From positions 1-64,000 of the forward strand of contig NZ_CVRR01000003.1 in the NCBI RefSeq assembly GCF_001406815.1: a stretch of DNA of 64,000 nucleotides, given 5' to 3'. Positions 3,039-43,081 of this stretch are shown one piece after another. Made by a program: the position numbers and the translations under genes. Position 1 is the stretch's first letter, and the number at the start of each line of letters is the position of its first letter. Source of the DNA: Roseburia faecis. Lineage in GTDB: Bacteria; Bacillota; Clostridia; Lachnospirales; Lachnospiraceae. The notes under the pieces were generated by a model. It saw nothing but the letters and a program-made list of their open reading frames with translations, searched no databases and was not told where the DNA came from.

Positions 3039-3302
3039 TTATAAATAACTTGAAGCATAGAAATTGGTTTTACTCGAATAAGTTTGAGATGTAATCTTTA
3101 CAATTCCTACATTTCCAACTCCAACATAAGTATCAAGATTTCCAGAACATTTTAAGGTAATACAGGAGGAAGTACATGTGGTTTTGTTACTTTGTCCAGA
3201 AAGTTTATATGTATATATAACAAAGTCAGAATCTACGCTTGCATTAGAAGCACTTGCATTTGTCCAGTGCTTTCCACTATAATATCCAACGGCATCACAA
3301 CT
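3039..3302 (-). pseudogene. 5'-truncated secreted-protein gene
   Basis: An open stretch of 87 codons reads SCDAVGYYSGKHWTNASA, continues with Ser/Thr-rich beta-like sequence (TCTSSCITLKCSGNLDTYVG) and ends KTNFYASSYL. It has no start codon or signal peptide and is in frame with the stop of the membrane-protein gene just upstream. Its composition and place (after a regulator and a small membrane protein) resemble the broken secreted genes at 31.4, 34.5 and 42.3 kb. Confidence 0.5.
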
Positions 3303-3326
3303 ATATATAATATATAGAGATGAACA

Positions 3327-3722
3327 TTATAATTCCCGCAATTTCATTTCATTTATTTTCTTTTTGCGCGTAATCGTTCTATTTCTTTTTATCCGATTAT
3401 AAATTGATATAACAGCAGGAATATTTGTAAGTATAAAGATAATGATACAATTATGTATCTTATCCTTTATAGACATCTGATTTTCGGAAACGAAACTATA
3501 TGAGAGTGTCAATAACCCCTGCTTCTCAACGCGTTCAAAACTTTCTGGTTCAAAATTAAGATACACTATAATTAATACGATTGAAAGAACAAGAAAAATA
3601 ATTGGTGTTAATGATACGGTAGTTGTTCTTCTTTTTTTATTTAAATATGATTCTAAAAAACGTACACAAATAATGGTTAATGCCATTATTATTACGATGA
3701 ATAAAATTGTAGAAAATTTCAT
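3327..3722 (-). CDS. Small integral membrane protein in an operon with a DUF2089 regulator
   Basis: The 131-residue protein has three hydrophobic segments: near the N-terminus, around residues 41-60 and around residues 92-112. It has basic stretches (KKRR, KRNRTITRKKK) on what would be the cytoplasmic side. AAAGGAG precedes its ATG, which follows the stop of the upstream regulator immediately. No family was recognised. Its position suggests it works with that regulator, perhaps as a sensor or anti-factor. Confidence 0.65.
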   Translation of the reverse strand: MKFSTILFIVIIMALTIICVRFLESYLNKKRRTTTVSLTPIIFLVLSIVLIIVYLNFEPESFERVEKQGLLTLSYSFVSENQMSIKDKIHNCIIIFILTNIPAVISIYNRIKRNRTITRKKKINEMKLREL

Positions 3723-4016
3723 TTATTCTCCTTTTTGCTCTCTGTATTTTTTTATCAATATTTTTGCTGTGTCAAAATCAAGTTGATCATCTATTACCAT
3801 TTTTTTAATTAATGAAATATAAGCGTCATTTTCTATTTGATCATTCATTTGCATTTTTTGTATAAGTCGATCAAGTCTCAATCGCACGGTAGGATATGTT
3901 ATATGATACAATTTTGCAACCTCTTTTAAAGAGCCAGATGACATAACAAAATTTTTTATAAATGTGATATCTTCATCACTTAAATTGTATATCCATTCTT
4001 GCGCTTTTCGTCTCAT
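3723..4016 (-). CDS. DUF2089-like helix-turn-helix regulator
   Basis: The 97-residue protein starts MRRKAQEWIYNLSDEDITFI and has a helix-turn-helix around GSLKEVAKLYHITYPTVRLR, typical of DUF2089 proteins. ATG 4016 is chosen because AAGGGG lies five bases before it; a TTG two codons earlier is less likely. It leads an operon with a small membrane protein and a broken secreted-protein gene. By analogy with PadR and DUF2089 cassettes it probably controls its own operon. Confidence 0.7.
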   Translation of the reverse strand: MRRKAQEWIYNLSDEDITFIKNFVMSSGSLKEVAKLYHITYPTVRLRLDRLIQKMQMNDQIENDAYISLIKKMVIDDQLDFDTAKILIKKYREQKGE

Positions 4017-4043
4017 TACCAACCCCTTTCTTTAATATTATTG

Positions 4044-4072
4044 ATATTATCATTTAATAATGTTAAAGTCAA
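4044..4072 (-). promoter_or_regulatory. Promoter of the DUF2089 operon
   Basis: TTGACT (4067-4072), a 17-bp spacer and TAATAT (4044-4049) face the regulator. The region is rich in TTATTAA/TTAATAA-type inverted sequence that could be an operator. Confidence 0.65.
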
Positions 4073-4390
4073 CTGCTAATATTATGTTATTTACATCTTT
4101 TTATCTTAATAATCATTCGAAACCTCAAACTTGTAAAGATAAGGTTTTCAGATTCGAGGTTACTCTCAACCCCCTTGCTTTTGTTTATATTTCTTCAATC
4201 ATCAGTTATAAAAAACAGAAGCATTTTAATCAGTTCACCATATCGGTTTCATTTATATTGGAAGCACAAGGTGTAGAGCAGAGATTGTCCGTGTCGGGTG
4301 GGTGGAGCAACTAAGAAATTGTTTGGTATTACAGCGGAAGAACTTTTGAAAAAAGCACGGTAAAATGCTGACTTATCAATTGAAAAATAA
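4073..4390. other. Gene-free stretch with a decayed C-terminal fragment
   Basis: The plus-strand frame ending at 4362 reads GATKKLFGITAEELLKKAR, which looks like the tail of a lost protein; the frame is broken by a stop upstream. The 17-bp sequence TTATTTACATCTTTTTA (4087-4103) recurs at 5440-5456, on the far side of the next two genes. Confidence 0.3.
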
Positions 4391-5029
4391 TTATTTTGTA
4401 TGGAATATCTGCATGGCTCCATAAGTATGCGGCAAATGCGGAGCCGTGACCTTTCTCGACGGGCAGGAAAAATTCCGGCAGGTTGCGCACGTATTACACA
4501 ATTGCTTGAGATTGGCGTGTGTTGTTGTATCCAGATGCAGGATCAGCGTTGCTGTCTTAAGCGGCCGGAGCATCTGCCCCTCGGTAAGCTGGATGCCATC
4601 CGGGGCAAGCCGCCCATAAATCTGTGGGAGCAGGTCAAGGGAATAGGTATCTCCCAGAAAAGATAATTCTGCAAGATACAGGCGGCTCTGACGTTCTACC
4701 ACATGTGCAAACTCTTCATAAGCCTTTGACAAAAGCATCAGGCTGATGCAGTCCACAATGTAAGCCTCCTGGATCTGTTCATGGTTCAGATATAATTCCG
4801 ACAGTTCATCCACTCCGTTTCCAAGCGTCACAAACCCATAGGCATAGTGAGGCAGGGAAACCCCGTCTAAATCCTGATCCAGAGAGTAATATGCATAGGA
4901 TTCAACCAGGGGAAGAAGTGCCGTATAAATTGCCTGAATATGGGGCAGGTCATCCGGAGGGAAATGGAAACGGCTGCAAAATTCGTTCCAGTCACCGGAG
5001 GATAATCCGGGAGTAAGTTTACATTTCAT
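4391..5029 (-). CDS. MetH activation domain-like protein (corrinoid protein reactivation)
   Basis: The 212-residue product has the pattern of the vitamin B12-dependent methionine synthase activation domain family found as separate genes in Clostridia: YGFVTLGNGVDELSELYL, then EAYIVDCISLMLLSKAYEEF, and a C-terminal Cys cluster LCNTCATCRNFSCP. Such proteins are thought to help reduce and re-methylate corrinoid cofactors. ATG 5029 is chosen because AAGGAGG stands nine bases upstream; the longer frame overlaps the upstream gene. It overlaps that Cys-rich gene by 11 bases, so the two are coupled. Confidence 0.6.
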   Translation of the reverse strand: MKCKLTPGLSSGDWNEFCSRFHFPPDDLPHIQAIYTALLPLVESYAYYSLDQDLDGVSLPHYAYGFVTLGNGVDELSELYLNHEQIQEAYIVDCISLMLLSKAYEEFAHVVERQSRLYLAELSFLGDTYSLDLLPQIYGRLAPDGIQLTEGQMLRPLKTATLILHLDTTTHANLKQLCNTCATCRNFSCPSRKVTAPHLPHTYGAMQIFHTK

Positions 5030-29974: not shown

Positions 29975-29989
29975 GAAGGAGTGCGTGGT

Positions 29990-31392
29990 ATGGGAATTTA
30001 TCTGAATCCATCTGCGGATGGATTTGCATCCATTATGAAAACCGGAGATTATGTGGATAAAACCGGATTGATTACCTATATGAATGCGGTATTAAACTCT
30101 TCCAGAAATATGCTGTGTTCAAGCAGACCACGAAGATTTGGAAAATCTTATGCTGCACAGATGCTTTCCGCATTTTATTCTAAGGGAGCAGATGCGGGGG
30201 AACTGTTTGCACATTTGCGCGTAGCCAATCCGCCGGAGGAGACAAAGGAGAAAGAGAAAGAGTGGTACAATAAATATCGTAATAATTGTGACGTCCTGTT
30301 TTGGGATATGGCGTGGTTTATTTCCAATGCACAGAATATAGAGGATACAATTTTGAATCTGCAGCGTGACATTGGAAAGGAATTACGGGAAGCCTTTCCG
30401 GATTGTGTGACAGAGGAAGTCGTTTCTTTGCCGGAAATATTACTTACAATCAGTGTAAAAACCGGGCATAAATTTTTGATTATTATTGACGAGTGGGATG
30501 CGTTGTTCCGTGAAGCGCCGGAAAATACAGAACTGCAAAAGACATATATTCAGTTGTTGCGCGCATTGTTCAAGGGAATTCAGGTTTCCCGTTTTTTGTG
30601 TGGAGCTTATATGACGGGAATTTTACCGATCAAAAAATATGGAACGCAGTCGGCCCTTACCGATTTTACCGAATTTACGATGCTTGAGCCGGGACCGCTG
30701 GCACCCTATGTTGGTTTTACAGAGGATGAGGTAAAAAAGCTGTGTACCGGTCATCACATGGATTATGAGGAAATGCGCAGATGGTACGATGGGTATTATT
30801 TTGATGAGATCGGGCATGTGTATAATCCAAATTCGGTGATAAAGGCAGTTTTTTGCGGAAAATACAGTAATTACTGGACACAGACAGAAACTTATGAATC
30901 ACTGCGAATTTATATAGATTTAAATTTTGATGGTCTGAAGGAATGTCTGGTCGATATGCTTGGAGGAAAGCGTTGCCGGGTCGATATCGGGTCGTTTCAG
31001 AATGACATGACTTCCATGAAAAGCCGGGATGATGTACTTACTTTACTGGTGCATCTGGGATATCTGGGATATGATGCAGACAATAAAGAGGTGTATATTC
31101 CAAACGAAGAAATCAGGGAAGAGTTTATTCGTGCAATCAAAAACGGCAGACGTCAGGAACTGGTGAAAGCAATTCAGCTGTCAGATCATTTGTTGAAGGC
31201 AACAATAAACCTGCATTACTGATCGAGTTGAAATGGGACAAATCTGCAGAAAAAGCGATTACACAGATCAAAGAAAAGAATTATACGCAGTTGGTGAAAA
31301 AATTGGGATATGATGGGGAGGTTCTTCTGGTTGGAATCAATTATAGCACCAAGACAAAGAAACATTCCTGTGTGATTAAAAATTTTAGATAA
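29990..31392 (+). pseudogene. AAA-ATPase-like/PD-(D/E)XK nuclease-like gene (DUF1703 type) with internal deletion
   Basis: ATG 29990 follows GGAAGGAG. The first 400 codons show the AAA-ATPase-like domain: ADGFASIMKTGDYVDKTGLI, Walker A-like SRPRRFGKSYAAQML and Walker B-like FLIIIDEWDALFRE. Near 31190 the frame shifts: the original frame ends at 31222, while another frame reads GNNKPALLIELKWDKSAEKA and onwards to TAA 31392, which is the C-terminal nuclease core (ExK in IELK). About 100 residues between the two parts are missing. The gene is therefore broken. Similar wrecks lie at 42.5 kb and, as a stub, at 37.97 kb. Confidence 0.75.
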
Positions 31393-31441: not shown

Positions 31442-31927
31442 TTACTGTAAAGTTCCGTTTTTGGTACAGGAAATGGAAACAGTACGCGTAGTTGAAGTGA
31501 TTTCGGAATTGGAAAGGATATGGGAGCCTGTTGCAGAAGCATATCCGGTATTCCCGGATTTCCAACTCGATTTATTGGTAACTTTCCATGCCGAAGAATT
31601 ACTTTCTGCGGTAACATCAGCGCTTGTGCAGGAAGAAGTGCTTCCGTTATAGGTAAAAAAAGCATGTACCGTCACATACCATAAAGTAGTGCCGGAAGAA
31701 TTTACATAACGTTGTGTTTTACTTCCACTTTTGGTCTGGGTAGCTGAAAAAGGCTGAATTCCAGAACCTGACGTTTCAACAATTTCTGTCACACAGTAGA
31801 GATCATCGGAAATGGCTTCTTTTGTAACTGTGACGGTTTGAGCCTAAAGAGACTGACTGGGTATTGTGGCACATATAAGTGCAGAAGAAAGTAATAAAGC
31901 AGAAATAAATTTACCTGATTTTATCAT
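31442..31927 (-). pseudogene. Secreted small protein gene interrupted by an amber stop after the signal peptide
   Basis: The gene starts at ATG 31927 after AAAGGAGG and encodes a signal peptide (MIKSGKFISALLLSSALICA) ending SQSL. Codon 28 is TAG (31844-31846). The same frame then continues open for about 134 codons: AQTVTVTKEAISDDLYCVTE, a Ser/Thr-rich beta-type domain with SSGTTLWYVTVHAFFTYNGS and final ISCTKNGTLQ. A single base change would restore it. It is the third gene of a PadR/membrane-protein operon and overlaps that operon's second gene by four bases (ATGA). Confidence 0.75.
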
Positions 31928-32316
31928 TGAGGGTCCTCCTTTAATATAGTTACTTCTTTTTGTATAAAAGTATCTAATTCCTTTTTGTGTTGTACATTTA
32001 TGTTGTAGATATATATGGATGAGAATATCAAAACGAAAACGGTAATGATGATACAGATCGTTTTTATATTCCATGTAAAACACACATTTTTCTTTTGCTT
32101 ATCAATAGATTGCTCCGAAAAATAATCGTTTACCAGTTCCTGTGGATCTCCAAACTGTGAGACAAGCTGTTCATAATCGAGAGAATCCTGTTGCGCTGCA
32201 TAAGAAATGACAGCGTCTTTCAAATCAGAAATAAATCTTGCGTCTGTGGTATGGTAGTGTTTAAACTGCTTCTGCACAGCCTTTATATATTTATCCGTAA
32301 TTTTATCCTTGGTCAT
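31924..32316 (-). CDS. HAAS/DUF1700-like small membrane protein, copy A
   Basis: The 130-residue protein has a cytoplasmic helical domain (ITDKYIKAVQKQFKHYH... LDYEQLVSQFGDPQELVNDYF) like the HAAS/DUF1700 domains that accompany PadR regulators, then one membrane helix (ICIIITVFVLIFSSIYIY) and a short outside tail. Overlapping starts and stops couple it to padR upstream and to the secreted gene downstream. It probably senses or transmits a membrane signal to the regulator. It is highly similar to 34601-34996 except in the membrane part. Confidence 0.75.
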   Translation of the reverse strand: MTKDKITDKYIKAVQKQFKHYHTTDARFISDLKDAVISYAAQQDSLDYEQLVSQFGDPQELVNDYFSEQSIDKQKKNVCFTWNIKTICIIITVFVLIFSSIYIYNINVQHKKELDTFIQKEVTILKEDPQ

Positions 32317-32671
32317 TGTCTCCCCCTTCTTCCTCCTGTGTAACCGTATATTTCAATACCTGTTGGATCGCATTGGCAGTCGCGTAATAATCCTCCAAAA
32401 GTTGTTGAAGATGCGTGCGGCCACTGTCTTCCAGGTGATAATAAACATTCACCTGACGGCGTCCAACCTGTTTTTTGTAGTCTGAAATATATCCGGCATC
32501 TATTAATTTGTAGAGGGCGGGATACAAAGAACCAACTGGAATATTCAGGTATCCATCGGTCTGTTCCCGGATCAGGGTGGATATTTCATAACCATAATAG
32601 TCCTGCTGGCTAAGCAGATGCAAAATTAACAATTCGACGGAACCGCGCCGGAAGTTACTTTTGTTGTTCAT
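32303..32671 (-). CDS. PadR-family transcriptional regulator, copy A
   Basis: The 122-residue protein has the PadR winged helix: RRGSVELLILHLLSQQDYYG, YEISTLIREQTDGYLNIPVG, SLYPALYKLIDAGYIS and a C-terminal dimer helix (SGRTHLQQLLEDYYATANAI). PadR proteins usually repress their own operon and a neighbouring transporter. It leads the operon with the membrane protein and the broken secreted gene; its promoter faces away from a rightward promoter. Confidence 0.92.
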   Translation of the reverse strand: MNNKSNFRRGSVELLILHLLSQQDYYGYEISTLIREQTDGYLNIPVGSLYPALYKLIDAGYISDYKKQVGRRQVNVYYHLEDSGRTHLQQLLEDYYATANAIQQVLKYTVTQEEEGGDNDQG

Positions 32672-32681
32672 AGGTTTCTCC

Positions 32682-32730
32682 TTATCTAATTAGATAAACG
32701 TATTATAAAACAAACAAGATAATAAAACAA
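32682..32730 (-). promoter_or_regulatory. padR (copy A) promoter with palindromic operator
   Basis: TTGTTT (32725-32730), 17-bp spacer, TATAAT (32702-32707). At the expected start point sits the perfect palindrome TTATCTAATTAGATAA (32682-32697), a good candidate for PadR binding. The matching palindrome is lost in copy B. Confidence 0.6.
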
Positions 32731-32753
32731 TGTATAGAAAAACTAAAATATAG

Positions 32754-32782
32754 TTGACATAGATAATTGAATATGCTAACGT
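32754..32782 (+). promoter_or_regulatory. Rightward divergent promoter, copy A
   Basis: TTGACA, 17-bp spacer, TAACGT. The same promoter with the same flanks is kept at 35427-35455 in front of the ABC transporter, though the genes behind the two copies differ. Confidence 0.55.
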
Positions 32783-32820
32783 GAAAACATAACAAGCAAT
32801 GATGATATCTTGGAGGATGA

Positions 32821-33087
32821 ATGGAAGAATATAGTGTATTAGATATTTTTTCTTATGTACCAAAGCAGAAAATTGACTTGGAACAGTTGGAAACTATATT
32901 TGTTAATGAAATTAACAATGTAAATGCAGCAACGAATGGTTATTACGTCGAAAAATATAAACAAATCCATGAGTTAGAGAAAAATATAAAAATAGCGGTT
33001 GAAGATTTACAGAATGAAGGAAAGAAGATTGCATTTATTAAGAAAGGGCGAAAGATAATAGCTGTGGTAGGATATAAGGTAGCATAA
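32821..33087 (+). CDS. Small hypothetical protein, 88 residues
   Basis: The protein is helical and charged (KYKQIHELEKNIKIAVEDLQ), soluble, with no family recognised. TTGGAGG stands four bases before the ATG. It is the first gene behind the copy A rightward promoter, upstream of a lipoprotein gene. Base composition is AT-rich compared with the core genes, which fits acquired DNA. Confidence 0.5.
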   Translation: MEEYSVLDIFSYVPKQKIDLEQLETIFVNEINNVNAATNGYYVEKYKQIHELEKNIKIAVEDLQNEGKKIAFIKKGRKIIAVVGYKVA

Positions 33088-33133
33088 GGATCAAAAGGAT
33101 GCAATATAAGATATTGAACGTTGGAGAACGATG

Positions 33134-33691
33134 ATGAAAAATAAACATAAATTATTTATACTTGGACTATTATTAAGTTTATGTCTTTGTGGTTGTGGTA
33201 AAACAAGTGATCAAAAATCTGATTTTGAATATCAATTGTTAGACGGTTGGGTTGAAAATAAGGTGGATAATACTTTGTTTTTTACACCAAATGCATATAA
33301 GGTTGGCTCAGAGGCGACTTGTGCTAAATATATGATTTCAGCAGGATATATTCAAAAGTTCAACACATCAGATGATTGGGGAAAGATAAAAGATGGGAAG
33401 ATACAACAGGTATATTTCAATAATCATTCAAATGTAGAAGATTATGGGCAAGTTGATGGACTGTGTGCTCCGGGATATTTAATTAAAGTAGATTATGATT
33501 TATATTCAGCTGCCGCGTTGGAAAAGGAAAAAAATAACGGAACAAATATTTTAGAAATTGATCAGACTGGGCAGTATTGGGTACTTTATTTAGTAAAGGA
33601 AAATAAAAAAACAGGATATATATTAGCGTTGAATACTCGGAACTATACAAAGGAAGATATGATTGAGTGGGCCAAAAGCTTCAAATTCTAA
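33134..33691 (+). CDS. Putative lipoprotein
   Basis: The 185-residue protein starts MKNKHKLFILGLLLSLCLCG with a lipobox ending in Cys (LCLCGC), so it is likely lipid-anchored outside the membrane. The rest is soluble (DYDLYSAAALEKEKNNG, YWVLYLVKENKKTGYILALN), of unknown family. Probably co-transcribed with the small gene upstream. ATG 33131 is an alternative start one codon earlier. Confidence 0.65.
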   Translation: MKNKHKLFILGLLLSLCLCGCGKTSDQKSDFEYQLLDGWVENKVDNTLFFTPNAYKVGSEATCAKYMISAGYIQKFNTSDDWGKIKDGKIQQVYFNNHSNVEDYGQVDGLCAPGYLIKVDYDLYSAAALEKEKNNGTNILEIDQTGQYWVLYLVKENKKTGYILALNTRNYTKEDMIEWAKSFKF

Positions 33692-33822
33692 AATATTTAA
33701 GTACATATGATAATAAAGTGTCAGATGCATTTTTAGGTAATGTAGAGAAGCCAAAACAAAAAGAATATGCACAAAGACGAGCATATTCAAAAAAAATATA
33801 TGATGCTCTAAAAAATTTTTAA
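33691..33822 (+). pseudogene. Short decayed reading frame
   Basis: A 43-codon open stretch without start (KYLSTYDNKVSDAFLGNVEK, ending YDALKNF) lies in another frame directly after the lipoprotein stop. It looks like the tail of a lost gene. Confidence 0.3.
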
Positions 33823-33843
33823 TTGGATTTGAAGGGATAAATA

Positions 33844-34464
33844 ATGTCAAAGAAAGCATTACCGGTAATTATTATAACGGTCTGTTTATTATTTGCGGGT
33901 TGCAAAGCTCCTGCAGATCAAGAACAGAAAAATAATACAGAAACAGCTGTCTTATCTACGGAAACACAGGAAGAGGATTGGAAACAGGTTCATTCTACAC
34001 AAAAGGATCTGGAAAAACTTCCGCAGAAGATACAGAAAATTTTTTCAGATAATCAAACATTCTTTGATGTGGAAAAAGGAAAAGAATATGATAAGAATTC
34101 TTTTATAAAAACATTGACAAAAGAAGGGTATCGGCCCCAGTGGGCAGAATTTCTGGTGGCAGACTGGGATAATGATGGAGAATATGAATTAGCTGTTTAT
34201 ATAAAAAACAGTACGGATTATAATGACTGCAGAATTTTTGATGCGTCAAATAAGAAAGTGTATGCGCATGCTTTTACGGCCCGTGCAATTGAGGGAATCA
34301 GTGATATGGGAATTATCAGAGGTTCAAGCGGTGCAGCTGATACAGACTATGACAGATTGTTTCTGGATGGAAAAGAACAAAAATTTTATGAATATAAAGG
34401 GGAAAAGGTATATCTATCGGTAGAATATGCATGGAGCCATGATTCCATTGTCTCAGGGATATGA
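33844..34464 (+). CDS. Putative lipoprotein with FG-GAP-like motif, C-terminus probably altered
   Basis: The 206-residue protein has a lipoprotein signal (PVIIITVCLLFAGC) and a calcium-loop-like stretch FLVADWDNDGEYELAVYI, as in VCBS/FG-GAP surface repeats. Its last codons run into the degraded YabB 3'-end copy at about 34440-34515, so the natural C-terminus was probably replaced when the island was duplicated. Confidence 0.6.
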   Translation: MSKKALPVIIITVCLLFAGCKAPADQEQKNNTETAVLSTETQEEDWKQVHSTQKDLEKLPQKIQKIFSDNQTFFDVEKGKEYDKNSFIKTLTKEGYRPQWAEFLVADWDNDGEYELAVYIKNSTDYNDCRIFDASNKKVYAHAFTARAIEGISDMGIIRGSSGAADTDYDRLFLDGKEQKFYEYKGEKVYLSVEYAWSHDSIVSGI

Positions 34465-34555
34465 AATCAGAGCCGGGGGGGGATATATGCCAGATATTTA
34501 TAATTTGCAGGTATGAAAAACCGTGGTGCATATCAGGATGCATCACGGTTTTTTG
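34465..34555. repeat. Degraded YabB 3'-end copy plus island hairpin, copy B
   Basis: About 34465-34515 resembles the YabB 3' end with several changes (GAGCCGGGGG, TATATGCC, AGATATTTAT). The hairpin AAAAACCGTGGTGCATATCA to TCACGGTTTTTT (34516-34555) follows directly, as at 42.2 kb. This marks the left end of the second island unit. Confidence 0.7.
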
Positions 34556-34604
34556 TTGGCAGGAGAACGTAATAAAGAGATGAAGAATTTAACTGGTTTT
34601 TCAT
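34533..34604 (-). pseudogene. Truncated secreted-protein gene, copy B (23 codons)
   Basis: The start (ATG 34604, AAAGGAGG, ATGA overlap with the membrane-protein gene) has exactly the layout of copy A, but the frame reads MKNQLNSSSLYYVLLPTKNR and stops inside the hairpin. The body of the gene has been deleted. Confidence 0.6.
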
Positions 34605-34996
34605 TGGGTATCATCCTCCTTTAAAATAATGATTTCTCGGTGAATAAAAGCATTTCTCTCTTCTTGGGCTAAATGATTGAGAGTATAAAAGAAAATGCCA
34701 GTACACCCCAAGACAATCAAAATTACAATGGTACAGGTTATTTTGACATTTCGTGAAAAGCGCAGGCTTCTTTTTTGCTTATCAATTGATTGCTCCGAAA
34801 AATAATCGTTTACCAGTTCCTGTGGATCTCCAAACTGTGAGACAAGCTGTTCATAATCGAGAGAATCCTGTTGCGCTGCATAAGAAATGACAGCGTCTTT
34901 CAAATCAGAAATAAATCTTGTGTCTGCGGCATGGTAGTGCTTAAACTGTTTCTGCACAGCCTTTATATATTCATCCGTAATTTTATCCTTGGTCAT
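34601..34996 (-). CDS. HAAS/DUF1700-like small membrane protein, copy B
   Basis: The 131-residue protein is almost identical to copy A over the first 75 residues (HAAS-like domain) but has a different membrane helix (ITCTIVILIVLGCTGIFFYT) and outer tail. The switch from identity to divergence at the membrane suggests that the domain facing the outside or the partner has changed. Second gene of the copy B operon. Confidence 0.75.
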   Translation of the reverse strand: MTKDKITDEYIKAVQKQFKHYHAADTRFISDLKDAVISYAAQQDSLDYEQLVSQFGDPQELVNDYFSEQSIDKQKRSLRFSRNVKITCTIVILIVLGCTGIFFYTLNHLAQEERNAFIHREIIILKEDDTQ

Positions 34997-35012
34997 TGTA
35001 TCCCCCTTTTTT

Positions 35013-35351
35013 CTACTGTGTAACCGTATATTTCAATACCTGTTGGATTGCATTGGCAGTCGCGTAATAATCCTCCAAAAGTTGTTGCAGATGCGTGCGG
35101 CCACTGTCTTCCAGATGATAATAAACATTCACCTGACGGCGTCCCACCTGTTTTTTGTAGTCTGAAATATATCCGGCATCTATTAATTTGTAGAGGGCGG
35201 GATACAAAGAACCAACTGGAATATTCAGGTATCCATCGGTCTGTTCCCGGATCAGGGTGGATATTTCATAACCATAATAGTCCTGCTGGCTGAGCAGATG
35301 CAAAATTAACAATTCGACGGAACCGCGCCGGAAGTTACTTTTGTTGTTCAT
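35013..35351 (-). CDS. PadR-family transcriptional regulator, copy B
   Basis: The 112 residues are identical in sequence to the first 112 of copy A, but a stop after VLKYTVTQ removes ten acidic C-terminal residues and also the overlap with the next gene. It faces the ABC transporter divergently, the usual place of a PadR repressor of an exporter. Confidence 0.9.
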   Translation of the reverse strand: MNNKSNFRRGSVELLILHLLSQQDYYGYEISTLIREQTDGYLNIPVGSLYPALYKLIDAGYISDYKKQVGRRQVNVYYHLEDSGRTHLQQLLEDYYATANAIQQVLKYTVTQ

Positions 35352-35426
35352 AGGCTTTTCCTTATTTTGAGTGTATTGTAAATTAAATAAGATAATAAGT
35401 CAATATATAGAAAAACTAAAATATAG

Positions 35427-35455
35427 TTGACATACACAATCGAATATGCTAACGT
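35427..35455 (+). promoter_or_regulatory. Promoter of the ABC transporter operon (copy B rightward promoter)
   Basis: TTGACA, 17-bp spacer, TAACGT, with the same upstream flank (AAAACTAAAATATAG) as at 32754. Conservation in both copies supports function. Confidence 0.55.
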
Positions 35456-35500
35456 GAAAATGTAACAAGTAATTAAATATTCAAACACAGGAGAATAATA

Positions 35501-36421
35501 ATGAAAAAAGAAGGTTCCACTGCTTCTATGCTGTGGCTGGATATCCGTAGGGGATTTTGCAGTAAGCGGTTTTGGGGCATTGTTGGGGTAGTTACAATTG
35601 TTTTTGTAGTGTTTCTTACACTTGACATCATATATCCATTACAAAAATATTATAATGGATATGGAACGTTTGACTGGAAATTGGACTCAATTTCGATGGC
35701 TCCATTTGCTGTTCGTATCGGTATTTTATCAATGGATCTGTTTATTACTTTTTTCCCATTTATTGGAGTAATAGCATATGCTGGAACGATAATAGATGAG
35801 CGAAAAGACGGATATTGTTATCAGATTATACAAAAAAGAGGGTTTCATTCCTATTACTGGAGTCATTTTGTCGCAAGTGGACTGCTTGGGGGACTTCTTG
35901 CGGTAGCTATTCTGATAAGCTTATATCTGTTGACAGACATTGGGATAGGACAAAATCCATTATGGAAAGATGCAATGCAAGTGTATCTTACACCCGAATT
36001 TGGATCGGAAAGCGAGACGGTTTATTTTGGCATCCATATTCTTACAAAATCAGCAGGACACGTTGAACTTGTATTGTTGGGAATGGTCAGCTTCTTTTTG
36101 ACGGGATGTTTGTTTGGGTTGTTAGGAGCGATAATTGCATTTGTATCAGATGCACGGGTTCTTGTATATGCAATGCCAATGATCATTATGGAGACCGGGT
36201 GTGGGGGACTTTATGCAATTTCCCTGTTGTTTGGAAGAGATTCTGTTGCCGCAAATGTGCTGGCATATTTTTATAACATAACAGGAGCATATATTTCATT
36301 TGGAAACTTATTAAGCCGGTGCATTGTGATCTTTTTGATTATTTTAATGCTATGTATTGGAAAAGGGATGGAATCTAAAGTAGTTCGGTATTATCTCGGA
36401 GAGGAGATCAGACAGGTATGA
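35501..36421 (+). CDS. ABC-2 type transporter permease
   Basis: The 306-residue protein has about six membrane helices, starting with FWGIVGVVTIVFVVFLTLDI. Between helices it carries YAGTIIDERKDGYCYQII, the DERKDG-type element of ABC-2 permeases. First gene of a permease-permease-ATPase operon behind the divergent padR copy B. Such transporters often export peptides or drugs. Confidence 0.75.
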   Translation: MKKEGSTASMLWLDIRRGFCSKRFWGIVGVVTIVFVVFLTLDIIYPLQKYYNGYGTFDWKLDSISMAPFAVRIGILSMDLFITFFPFIGVIAYAGTIIDERKDGYCYQIIQKRGFHSYYWSHFVASGLLGGLLAVAILISLYLLTDIGIGQNPLWKDAMQVYLTPEFGSESETVYFGIHILTKSAGHVELVLLGMVSFFLTGCLFGLLGAIIAFVSDARVLVYAMPMIIMETGCGGLYAISLLFGRDSVAANVLAYFYNITGAYISFGNLLSRCIVIFLIILMLCIGKGMESKVVRYYLGEEIRQV

Positions 36422-37323
36422 GAGAAACTATAGGGGCGGTTGTTCGCAAACCGGTGTTTCGAATAAAATTAATTGCTATTTCGCTACTTTTCGTTGTTTC
36501 GTTGATTGAACAGGTATCCAATAACTATATTCAGTCATCCGGGCAACAAGTGGGAAGAATGACGGTTATTTTATTGTTAATGCATACATTCAGTTATTTT
36601 TCATTTTATCTTTCAGTCTTTTTTGTTGGATATATATTATTGATTCCAGATATCGTTAAGGATGCATTTATAGAAAGGCAGACCATGATGCGGTGTCAGT
36701 CCCGTATGCGGGCGGCAAAGTATGCCATAGGAAAAATTATAGCCTTTTCGATTCTTTATGTTATTTGGTTTGTAATGCTTACCATCCTTGTTGGGGGGAT
36801 CTGGTTTCATGACTTTTCATTGGCATGGCCTAAATTTATGGATATCCAGCAAAGACAGCTTGCAGCCAATGGATTATCTACAATTACATGGATTAATATA
36901 CCGGTTGGAGCAGGCAAATATCCAACACTGCTTGTAGCAGGATTAATCTGTTTGCGAAGTACGATTGGGTTTATTTTTCTGGGATTGCTGGCTTTACTGG
37001 TAACATTAATTACTGGTAAAACGCGCAATGGAATGGGGATTGTTATTCTTTTGGCAGCGATTGCAGGCTATGTAAAACTATATATGAATGATGTATTTAC
37101 TTATTGGAATTCAGCACATCCGATTGGAAATAAACGCAGTTATATTCGTATATCAAAGGCTACCATAACACCATTGTTTACAACCTGTCTAAAATCGGAT
37201 GAATTTATGCCATGGATGCGCTATGGTATTATTGCGGGCATTCTTTTATGTGTCATCACCGGAGCAGGAATTATGCTTTATTACAGGAAAGGGGATTTGG
37301 GCGATGAGGATCGAGATGAATAA
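36418..37323 (+). CDS. ABC-2 type transporter permease (second subunit)
   Basis: The 301-residue protein has six membrane helices and a cytoplasmic stretch VKDAFIERQTMMRCQSRMRA typical for coupling to the ATPase. It overlaps the preceding gene (ATGA) and the ATPase start by 20 bases. Likely forms a heterodimer with the first permease. Confidence 0.72.
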   Translation: MRETIGAVVRKPVFRIKLIAISLLFVVSLIEQVSNNYIQSSGQQVGRMTVILLLMHTFSYFSFYLSVFFVGYILLIPDIVKDAFIERQTMMRCQSRMRAAKYAIGKIIAFSILYVIWFVMLTILVGGIWFHDFSLAWPKFMDIQQRQLAANGLSTITWINIPVGAGKYPTLLVAGLICLRSTIGFIFLGLLALLVTLITGKTRNGMGIVILLAAIAGYVKLYMNDVFTYWNSAHPIGNKRSYIRISKATITPLFTTCLKSDEFMPWMRYGIIAGILLCVITGAGIMLYYRKGDLGDEDRDE

Positions 37324-37939
37324 TATTAACAAAACAATAAAGGGTGTATCGCTTCTGACAGACATTAACCTGGCACTGGAATCCGGTCATATCTATGGAT
37401 TTGTCGGAGATAATGGCAGTGGAAAAACGGTATTGTTCAAGGTATTATTGGGACTGATGCACAAGACTTCCGGGACCATTCTGGTAGATGGCAGGGAACA
37501 GAAGGATCTGATGCAGGATGTTGGTTTCATCATTGAGCGTCCGGAGTACATACCATATTATTCAGCAAAAAAGAATCTGGAAATCATTGCGGCCTATCGG
37601 AAAGTCGCAGATGATCAGCGCATTCGCACGGTATTGGAGATGTTTGGCTTAGACCCGTCGGATAAGAAGGCGGTGGGGAAGTATTCGCTCGGTATGAAGC
37701 AAAAGCTTGCACTTTCCATGGCTTTTCTGGAAGATCCGAAAGTATTGATACTGGATGAACCGCTCAGCGCGCTGGATGCAGATTCGGTGCAGGAGGCCCG
37801 CAAGCGCATTTTGGAGGAAAAGAAGCGTGGAAAGCTGGTTCTTATTGCATCCCATTATCCGGAGGATATCCAATCACTGTGTGATGAGGTATATTGGATG
37901 AAGAATGGACATGTTTTACCGTCGAAGGAAAATAAATGA
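37304..37939 (+). CDS. ABC transporter ATP-binding protein
   Basis: The 211-residue ATPase has Walker A GDNGSGKTVLFK, signature YSLGMKQKLALSMAFLEDPK and Walker B VLILDEPLSALD, then the His loop IASHYPEDI. ATG 37304 with AAAGGGG upstream is preferred; the longer frame lies inside the permease gene. A 40-bp fragment of its 3' end (around DEVYWMK) recurs at 42346-42385. Confidence 0.88.
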   Translation: MRIEMNNINKTIKGVSLLTDINLALESGHIYGFVGDNGSGKTVLFKVLLGLMHKTSGTILVDGREQKDLMQDVGFIIERPEYIPYYSAKKNLEIIAAYRKVADDQRIRTVLEMFGLDPSDKKAVGKYSLGMKQKLALSMAFLEDPKVLILDEPLSALDADSVQEARKRILEEKKRGKLVLIASHYPEDIQSLCDEVYWMKNGHVLPSKENK

Positions 37940-42186: not shown

Positions 42187-42385
42187 TATATGCCGGAGAT
42201 TTATGATATTTACGGGTATGAAAAACCGTGGTGCATATCAGGATGCATCACGGCTTTCTTTTTACTGTAAAGTTCCGTTATAGGTAAAAGAAGCATGTAC
42301 AGTCACATACCATAAAGTAGTGACGGAAGAGACTGACTGGGTATTCACTGTGTGATGAGGTATATTGGATGAAGAGTGGACATAT
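42187..42385. other. Collapsed third copy of the island (scar)
   Basis: In 200 bases the order of the island is repeated in miniature. First the 29-bp YabB 3' end (42187-42215), then the hairpin (42221-42262). Next comes a doubly deleted secreted-protein gene on the minus strand (TTLWYVTVHASFTYNGTLQ, stop near 42264). Last is a 40-bp piece of the ABC ATPase 3' end (42346-42385, same order as 37876-37914). The remaining bases up to 42486 hold only a probable promoter (TATAAT at 42438) for the next gene. Confidence 0.75.
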
Positions 42386-42486
42386 TCAGTTGCAGTAAAT
42401 TTTGTAATTGGCTCGTAAAAATATCTGCCATCATGTATAATAAAATATACAGAAAAAGATAATTATGTTGAAAAGGAGCCAACACT

Positions 42487-42909
42487 ATGGGAACATATTT
42501 GAACAGCATAACTCCATATACTTTGTATAAAAGTGAGTGCTTAAGCGCGTATTTTGTGGATAAAACACTTATGCTCAGGGAACTGTTTCCGTATGTAAGT
42601 GCGGGAAATCGTCATATCTGTATCACCAGACCACGCAGATTCGGAAAGACAATTATGGCGAACATGATCAGCTCTTTTTTTCAAAAGATACCGGATTCAG
42701 GTGATGGAAAAAATACTTGAATTTGCCCATAACACAGAAGTGATAAAACTGCTGATTGTATGATTCTGGAATTAAAGGTAGATCATACACCGGATGAGGC
42801 TATTGCACAAATAAAAGATAAAAAGTATGCACTCAGGTTTGTACCAAAGATTGCCGGGAACAGAGAGTATACAGGAAGAATACTGGCAGTTGGTATTTTT
42901 GTAGTATGA
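42487..42909 (+). pseudogene. DUF1703-type ATPase/nuclease gene with large internal deletion
   Basis: The start (MGTYLNSITPYTLYKSECLS, then CITRPRRFGKTIMANMISSF) is the AAA-ATPase-like N-terminus, stopping at 42720. The C-terminal nuclease end (MILELKVDHTPDEAIAQIKD, final RILAVGIFVV) follows in another frame to 42909. Over 300 residues of the middle are missing. Same family as 29990-31392, but a different member. Confidence 0.75.
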
Positions 42910-43081
42910 AAAAGGTACGGGAGTGTACTTGCGTTTCCAATCGTTTTCTGCTACAGTAGGCGTAAACAGAACAGGTGATTAGCAAAGGAGCTTTCTCGGA
43001 TAAGAGGAAGCTCTTCTTTTATATAACGAAAAAAGAGTCAAAAAGGAGGCGAATCTATGGATGCAGAAATGATCATACTCT
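42894..43081. repeat. Right copy of the approximately 190-bp direct repeat
   Basis: Matches 37975-38162. Here it is in its natural setting: the DUF1703 gene end, terminator (42988-43020), and ribosome site plus first codons of the gene at 43057. Confidence 0.8.

Follow-up and report, generated by a model that had tools for sequence, protein, structure and literature searches.

Recurrent loss of a secreted-protein gene from PadR/HAAS-like cassettes in Roseburia faecis and related Clostridia

Two cassettes with damaged third genes in Roseburia faecis

The window analyzed here comprises 64,000 nucleotides of Roseburia faecis (positions 1 to 64,000 of contig NZ_CVRR01000003.1). Its minus strand carries two similar cassettes with 2.7 kb between them, each made up of a gene for a PadR regulator, a gene for a small DUF6120 (HAAS-like) membrane protein and a gene for a secreted protein, hereafter gene 3 (Table 1). 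As an initial annotation of this DNA had claimed, the PadR and membrane-protein frames of both cassettes are open, and gene 3 is lost in a different way each time. In copy 1, the assembled sequence has an in-frame TAG (amber) codon at 31844–31846, directly past the signal peptide, and the rest of the gene is open to its normal end. In copy 2, a frame of 23 codons is left: blastn against copy 1 matched the start region (75%) and a 38-base end region (95%) that falls just past the end of gene 3, with nothing between. A third lesion, which the annotation had described as a double internal deletion near 42264–42350, was recovered as three separated blocks of copy 1, and no PadR or HAAS gene adjoins this orphan remnant. 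No further DUF6120 protein was found in this genome beyond the two window copies (own-genome search), and no intact gene 3 (gene 3 query and profile search). The stop codon of the HAAS-like gene and the start codon of gene 3 overlap by four bases (ATGA) in both window copies, an arrangement that is not universal among relatives. Read-through of the amber codon by a suppressor tRNA was considered and rejected, because ARAGORN detected no CUA anticodon among the tRNAs at the genome's 51 RF00005 matches; a tRNA outside that model, or near-cognate read-through, would escape this check.

Comparison of the two copies revealed a mosaic. Over 112 codons, the PadR genes differ at five synonymous and no non-synonymous positions, and codons 1–74 of the HAAS-like genes at three synonymous and four non-synonymous ones. 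An abrupt divergence between the cassettes (31924–32671 versus 34601–35351) begins at about HAAS codon 75, at the membrane junction, and in codons 75–130, which encode the transmembrane (TM) helix and tail, synonymous sites are saturated. This saturation points to an old divergence beside a recently homogenized 5' part. Judged from these codon comparisons, the cytoplasmic half (PadR and the 5' part of the HAAS-like gene) appears to have been homogenized recently, and the membrane/outside half not. Such a pattern would be expected if the outside half carried differing specificity, although other causes are possible. A raw count of codon differences had suggested a non-synonymous excess, and hence positive selection, in the HAAS tail; proper counting revealed saturated synonymous sites instead, and the idea was dropped. 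The divergent intergenic regions of the two cassettes are partly conserved between them.

Gene 3 among related genomes

In a search of 299 family genomes, about one per genus, PF19615 (DUF6120) was present in 22, with 16 above the cut-off. A gene 3 profile matched 31 of 397 genomes, its weakest matches lying inside large proteins, and scanning GTDB contigs by PadR, without regard to gene 3, yielded 26 loci, 25 of them from Lachnospiraceae or other Clostridia. For the loss counts one genome per species was sampled, and the comparison covered 40 non-fused cassettes in which the PadR and HAAS-like genes are both complete, including both window copies. Gene 3 was intact in 25, broken in five and not recognizable in 10, window copy 2 with its stub being counted among the last; omitting one locus that came from a gene 3 query (L007; loci are cited by our working labels) left 24 of 39 intact. 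Intact three-gene cassettes, which the initial annotation had suggested looking for in Lachnospiraceae, were therefore found, and its description of the secreted gene as always broken holds for this genome and fails for the wider family. The annotation had also named a mostly intact gene 3 with low turnover as what would speak against it; gene 3 is indeed intact in most cassettes, but its turnover is not low.

The five broken genes were those of window copy 1 and L041 (amber), L049 (frameshift), L051 (both ends lost) and L055 (internal deletion), and four kinds of lesion occur across the relatives: amber codon, frameshift, internal deletion and deletion of the whole gene. L048 and L049 (around 3501–4750) carry near-identical PadR-HAAS pairs at one site in two assemblies, with gene 3 deleted in the former and frameshifted in the latter; the genes adjoining these cassettes are presumably type I restriction genes. 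On a tree of the cassettes, the state of gene 3 changed at least 11 times, a number that fell to 7 without four absences on long branches and to 4 if only the five broken copies were counted as lost. Parsimony gives no direction, and it is the remnants, together with the mostly terminal positions of the changes, that indicate loss. In all 15 tree rows lacking an intact gene 3, rows which had been picked for having both other genes, PadR and HAAS frames were open. Collectively, the repeated loss of gene 3 with retention of the PadR-HAAS dyad is real, and this part of the initial annotation stands (at least 7–11 tree changes, four lesion kinds). At six loci a single cassette gene was damaged and had left remnants; this was gene 3 at five of them and the HAAS-like gene at one. 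A first count of five out of five had suggested that only gene 3 breaks, which was overturned by L157, where PadR and gene 3 are open and the HAAS-like gene that separates them is broken. Since PadR and HAAS served as retrieval bait, the comparison of damage is biased towards intact copies of these two.

Loci were set aside for having PadR only, a broken PadR, a contig end or a protein of another family (L046, L047, L056, L059, L060, L062, L064, L065, L164); for longer HAAS proteins of another type (L155, L160–L163, L165); for contigs that end too soon (L008, L131, L145, L151) or, with gene 3 intact, leave PadR off the contig (L012); for damage to both HAAS and gene 3 (L128, L158) or to HAAS with gene 3 open (L157); for gene 3 with no recognizable HAAS (L156, L159); and for PadR or HAAS not being in view (L132, L135, L149). 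L017, L014 and L035 duplicate L045, L050 and L054, respectively, and L129 and L130 duplicate L050 and L054, which they replace in the neighbor count below. In L126, L150, L152 and L154, gene 3 may be originally absent or too diverged to recognize. A check for phage carriage did not confirm a PadR relative in viral contigs.

Several further features of these loci were observed. L041, from Petralouisia muris, provides a second case of an in-frame amber codon in an otherwise open gene 3 (4245–4766). Downstream of HAAS in L154 lies a 57-codon open reading frame (ORF) that begins like a signal peptide. In L141 and L143 a second small HAAS-like protein, identified by eye, lies past gene 3, and L141 has PadR as its last gene. 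L159 (2670–3819) encodes two tandem gene 3-like proteins within a row of signal-peptide-like proteins, and HAAS and PadR matches are absent within its 4.7 kb.

A module at 3039–4016 had been read in the initial annotation as the same loss by 5' truncation. Its regulator is a genuine DUF2089-helix-turn-helix plus SHOCT-like protein. Its 3' fragment did not match the gene 3 profile and gave nothing at E 0.001 in 298 other family genomes, and no third gene of that kind stood beside the three strongest DUF2089 relatives found in 60 genomes. As the fragment matches neither gene 3 nor any relative, there is no basis here for calling it a homologous secreted gene truncated at its 5' end, and by these searches the module is best regarded as a different system, unrelated to the PadR/HAAS/gene 3 cassettes.

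Table 1. Features of the two cassettes, the orphan remnant and the divergent operons in the window
Feature	Position	Strand	Basis and remarks
PadR winged-helix regulator, cassette 1	32303–32671	-	PF03551, E 2e-17; own-genome search; frame open
DUF6120/HAAS-like protein, cassette 1	31924–32316	-	PF19615, E 3.3e-8, above cut-off; frame open
Gene 3, secreted beta-protein, amber-interrupted, cassette 1	31442–31927	-	Profile match with one TAG, E 3.2e-34
PadR, cassette 2	35013–35351	-	Same protein as cassette 1 PadR over 112 codons; frame open
DUF6120/HAAS-like protein, cassette 2	34601–34996	-	Residues 1–74 near-identical to cassette 1, 75–130 anciently diverged; frame open
Gene 3 remnant, cassette 2	34533–34604	-	23-codon ORF, body deleted; alignment and blastn
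Orphan gene 3 remnant, two internal deletions	42220–42345	-	blastn blocks of 19, 58 and 73 bases at 90–100%
Divergent intergenic region, cassette 1	32672–32820		Alignment
Divergent intergenic region, cassette 2	35352–35500		Alignment; promoter-like TTGACT-17-TACAAT towards PadR
Divergent operon, cassette 1: 88-residue ORF and two predicted lipoproteins	32821–34464	+	ORFs; lipobox heuristic
Divergent operon, cassette 2: ABC-2-type permeases and ABC ATPase	35501–37939	+	ABC_tran, E 6.2e-29

The encoded proteins and the divergent operons

The window PadR passes the curated cut-off of the PF03551 winged helix-turn-helix family (63.4 bits versus 27), and the HAAS-like protein that of PF19615 (33.9 bits versus 27). 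A DUF6120 match was obtained for all 30 HAAS proteins scanned (E 0.01). With the Pfam HAAS model itself, the window copy scored 14.6 bits against a cut-off of 27, and 5 of the 30 members matched at E 0.01 (best 6.6e-4). G56 and P58 of the GxP motif are invariant in 20 HAAS-like proteins. PadR is adjacent in all 42 tree rows, by selection of the rows, and one DUF6120/HAAS-like protein (L149) has no PadR match in its 7 kb. The cassette 1 HAAS protein has a single C-terminal TM helix, as judged by eye and from a model, followed by a short tail; the modeled helices span residues 3–16, 23–42, 48–55 and 58–127, and Foldseek found no match for the model below E 3.2 among solved structures, DUF1048/HAAS included. 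In the open-licence PubMed Central (PMC) literature no mention of DUF6120 or DUF6147 was found, a query for PadR with co-component returned unrelated papers only, and among the titles listed there was nothing on a Lachnospiraceae HAAS/PadR/secreted cassette; a paper on the lipocone, in the part available, mentions HAAS and PadR (PMC12419801).

Gene 3 proteins start with what by eye is a signal peptide, followed by a strand region that varies and by a conserved domain. When the secreted proteins were aligned, as the initial annotation had suggested, a Phe, a Trp, a Gly and two Cys of this domain were invariant in 15 diverse members, and the C-terminal end takes the form C-x-x-x-G-x-[LIV]-[SY], with the last residues varying in the window copy and a few relatives. 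The 15 proteins gave no match in PHROGs or PADLOC, and in Pfam and NCBIfam merely weak single-member matches, none of them convincing. Searched against the sequences of the Protein Data Bank, the gene 3 profile hit antibodies only (E 0.55), and 4k15 was unmatched. An AlphaFold2 model of the L052 protein, made with 15 other rows, had eight strands, with a predicted local distance difference test (pLDDT) of 91.4 and a predicted template modeling score (pTM) of 0.84. Foldseek returned nothing under E 0.001 for this model, the best match being 4k15 (E 8.3e-3, TM-score about 0.48). The best row of VIA-align was likewise 4k15 (Lmo2686/Zea; Z 7.5, root-mean-square deviation 3.0, 91 residues aligned), and other rows included 8alo_B of the ToxR/ToxS complex (Z 6.2, 4.0, 98), the insect pigment protein 9kue_D (Z 6.1), 5kew_D of the VtrA/VtrC complex (Z 5.6, 4.2, 89) and streptavidins (about 4.8); 8alo_B and 5kew_D are complex chains with the subunit not assigned. 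The net charge of gene 3 proteins differs in sign and is positive in 19 of 26.

In two of the 397 genomes searched, G110 (L018/L142) and G270 (L027/L153), the HAAS proteins measure 262 and 264 residues and carry a C-terminal domain in which the landmarks of gene 3 recur. Identity between the two fused domains is 26%, and their profile–profile comparison with gene 3 gave E 9.5e-5 at a probability of 58.6. As these genomes are sisters on the tree, the fusions may represent one event. A docking signature was sought in 26 pairs, and in 21 less redundant ones, of HAAS tail and gene 3 N-terminus against permuted partners. HAAS tails showed a weak excess of similarity to gene 3 over shuffled tails (z 1.8–2.7). 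In L143, the HAAS tail GYFIKTI resembled the N-terminal strand GYYVKTI of its own gene 3; this strand mimicry was rejected as evidence and is retained as no more than an idea.

The neighborhood was examined in 36 cassettes, namely the relatives with enough upstream DNA, the two fused cassettes included and the window copies excluded. The nearest upstream ORF of at least 100 residues was divergent in 30 of the 36, and downstream 16 of 35 faced the other way. Predicted exported products, i.e. secreted proteins or lipoproteins, made up 34 of 64 among the first two upstream ORFs versus 7 of 59 downstream (Fisher p 1e-6); counted by locus, the figures were 23 of 36 versus 6 of 35 (p 9e-5). Among the 13 loci of this set without an intact gene 3, a divergent exported gene was kept in 8 and not in 5. 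The window agrees with this trend, with two lipoproteins opposite cassette 1 and an ABC-2-type transporter opposite cassette 2, whose first permease matched ABC2_membrane_2 at E 7.5e-4, below the cut-off, and whose second was named by position only. In Eubacterium ramulus (L054/L130), a 79-residue ORF and an ABC exporter with a C39 peptidase occupy the divergent position. Promoter-like sites showed no excess (20 hits versus 18.5 in shuffles). A lactococcin-972-like identity was considered for small divergent secreted proteins; Pfam gave no lactococcin match and the name was not used, two of four such proteins matching DUF2712 below the cut-off (E 0.0033 and 0.0095). Elsewhere in the window, an ATPase-like ORF, recognized by eye, lies at 29981–31392, its frame apparently interrupted near 31220; what looks by eye like a shorter stretch of the same kind of gene lies at 42486–42910, near the orphan gene 3 remnant.

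A putative signaling unit, its rivals and related systems

A pair of a HAAS protein and PadR has been described as a signaling dyad and proposed as a membrane-stress alternative to two-component systems (Ravi et al. 2024, PMC11237479). Together with the Listeria LltR operon discussed below, the fusions and the divergent exported operon, this led us to view the gene 3 product as the putative external partner in a HAAS-PadR switch. We give about even chances to the reading that the cassette is a three-part membrane signaling unit for the divergent exported operon, with gene 3 as its extracytoplasmic partner. PadR would act as a transcriptional repressor, its probable targets being its own operon and the divergent one, and the DUF6120/HAAS-like protein, by analogy with the described dyad, would link a membrane signal to PadR via its cytoplasmic helices. 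The gene 3 beta-protein, as the fusions and the shared operon suggest, would sense or convey the signal outside the cell; the output would be the divergent operon with its exported proteins, lipoproteins or ABC transporters. Gene 3 would be lost where its signal stops mattering or where fixed control is favored, and PadR-HAAS would mostly be kept because the divergent target operon needs its regulator, so that self-protection is not required. A more elaborate version, which we consider possible though rather doubtful, is a split co-component sensor in which a cytoplasmic PadR and a HAAS TM adapter are joined outside by the docking of a fast-evolving, eight-stranded secreted protein that sets the divergent exported operon; loss of this part would rewire loci, and some lineages would have welded it onto the adapter.

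Several observations weigh against a signaling role of gene 3. In L157 (3405–4540), PadR and gene 3 are open, and of the intervening HAAS-like gene only the initial codons and, out of frame, a segment for the TM helix and tail are left, which is awkward for a gene 3 product acting only through HAAS; in L156 and L159 gene 3 is present without a recognizable HAAS. HAAS tails were no closer to their own gene 3 N-terminus than to those of others (permutation p 0.19–0.33), and the tail is modeled as a low-confidence helix end. The fusions are few (two), and the likeness of their predicted domains to gene 3 is modest. Structural Z-scores of 5–7.5 for a predicted model are middling, provide a lead only and may reflect a common arrangement, and the top row, Zea/Lmo2686, is no sensor. 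By eye, the signal peptides seem cleavable, which would allow the protein made from gene 3 to be released outright from the cell. In addition, export was predicted with a crude home-made signal heuristic.

Other explanations of the losses have to be considered. Gene 3 might encode a costly secreted antibacterial or public-good effector, with HAAS protecting the cell or merely regulating, and cheaters dropping gene 3 while keeping the protection. The repeated disappearance of gene 3 from cassettes that keep HAAS, the distribution of single-gene damage (gene 3 at 5 of 6 loci, HAAS at 1 of 6) and the C39-peptidase exporter and 79-residue ORF beside the E. ramulus cassette (L054/L130) would all suit such an effector. 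We nevertheless hold it to be unlikely, for the divergent operon is already enriched for predicted exported proteins, a gene-3-like domain joined to HAAS in two genomes is ill-suited to a toxin, the open gene 3 and broken HAAS of L157 do not sit easily with an immunity role of HAAS, and the 15 members yielded no convincing match to a toxin, phage or defense family in PHROGs, PADLOC, Pfam and NCBIfam. Self-protection, which the initial annotation had offered as a possible reason for keeping the dyad, is thus the weaker reason, given the described PadR-HAAS signaling (PMC11237479), the divergent exported operon often kept (8 of 13), the two fusions and L157. Taken together, its observation was confirmed for the window lesions and not for the DUF2089 module, and its interpretation is supported in the repeated loss and weakened in the self-protection.

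If gene 3 were dispensable and simply decaying neutrally in an accessory locus, without functional meaning, losses mostly at the tips of the tree and of several kinds would be natural, as would the decay of HAAS too at L128, L157 and L158. However, an intact gene in 25 of 40 cassettes and the invariant Cys, Trp, Phe and Gly of 15 diverse members argue for long-term selection, and PadR and HAAS are open in the 15 tree rows lacking an intact gene 3, albeit in rows chosen so; we therefore judge pure decay to be distinctly unlikely. Very unlikely, in our estimate, is a secreted Zea (Lmo2686)-like oligomer, e.g. an extracellular RNA or glycan binder, merely co-regulated by PadR-HAAS. Zea is secreted, forms a toroid hexamer and binds RNA (PMC6907008), its operon is induced by some cell-wall antibiotics (PMC6686043), and 4k15 tops the structural rows in VIA-align (Z 7.5) as well as Foldseek (E 8.3e-3). 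Against this, the gene 3 sequence profile has no match to 4k15, Z is under 8 and possibly reflects a common arrangement, the varying sign of the net charge does not indicate general RNA binding, and the fusion to HAAS favors a tethered role.

Returning to the three-part signaling unit, it could explain why the secreted gene was lost many times while its regulator stayed. To HAAS-PadR pairs, a proposed alternative to two-component systems, these cassettes add in many cases a small secreted protein from a family without a name, sometimes fused to the HAAS protein, and a plausible divergent target operon. Related species naturally carry gene 3 alleles that are present, interrupted by nonsense codons, deleted or fused, and with these the role of the putative sensory part can be tested directly.

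The systems to which the cassettes can be compared share some of these properties each. As in the described HAAS-PadR dyad, a small winged-helix PadR stands beside a membrane protein with HAAS-like helices and a GxP motif; unlike in that dyad, for which no secreted third partner appears in the available part of its paper (PMC11237479), the membrane protein here is a DUF6120 protein with one TM helix and a short tail, and gene 3 follows. The LltR operon of Listeria (lmo0599-0601), whose three genes are up more than 100-fold in an lltR mutant (PMC6624303), likewise combines a PadR repressor, a HAAS-type membrane protein (DUF1700 in Listeria) and an exoprotein in one operon. It differs in that the exoprotein is of the DUF4097 type, the membrane protein is multi-spanning and the cold-sensitive phenotype comes from lmo0600 and not from the exoprotein (PMC6624303). 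Zea/Lmo2686 is also a small secreted beta-protein and the top structural row, but it has no sequence match to gene 3 and lies in another operon, and an oligomer and RNA binding would be putative for gene 3. The sensors VtrA/VtrC and ToxR/ToxS, encoded by neighboring genes (PMC9214523), resemble the cassettes in a downstream, often overlapping gene for a fast-evolving, eight-stranded extracytoplasmic partner, with middling structural similarity between the predicted gene 3 fold and their chains. Unlike in these pairs, the DNA-binding domain is on a separate PadR, HAAS acts as a presumed adapter, the partner bears a cleavable-looking signal peptide and the hosts are Gram-positive. With DNA binding assigned to a protein of its own and no homology demonstrated, we do not class the cassette as a co-component system and place it beside these sensors as a possible parallel.

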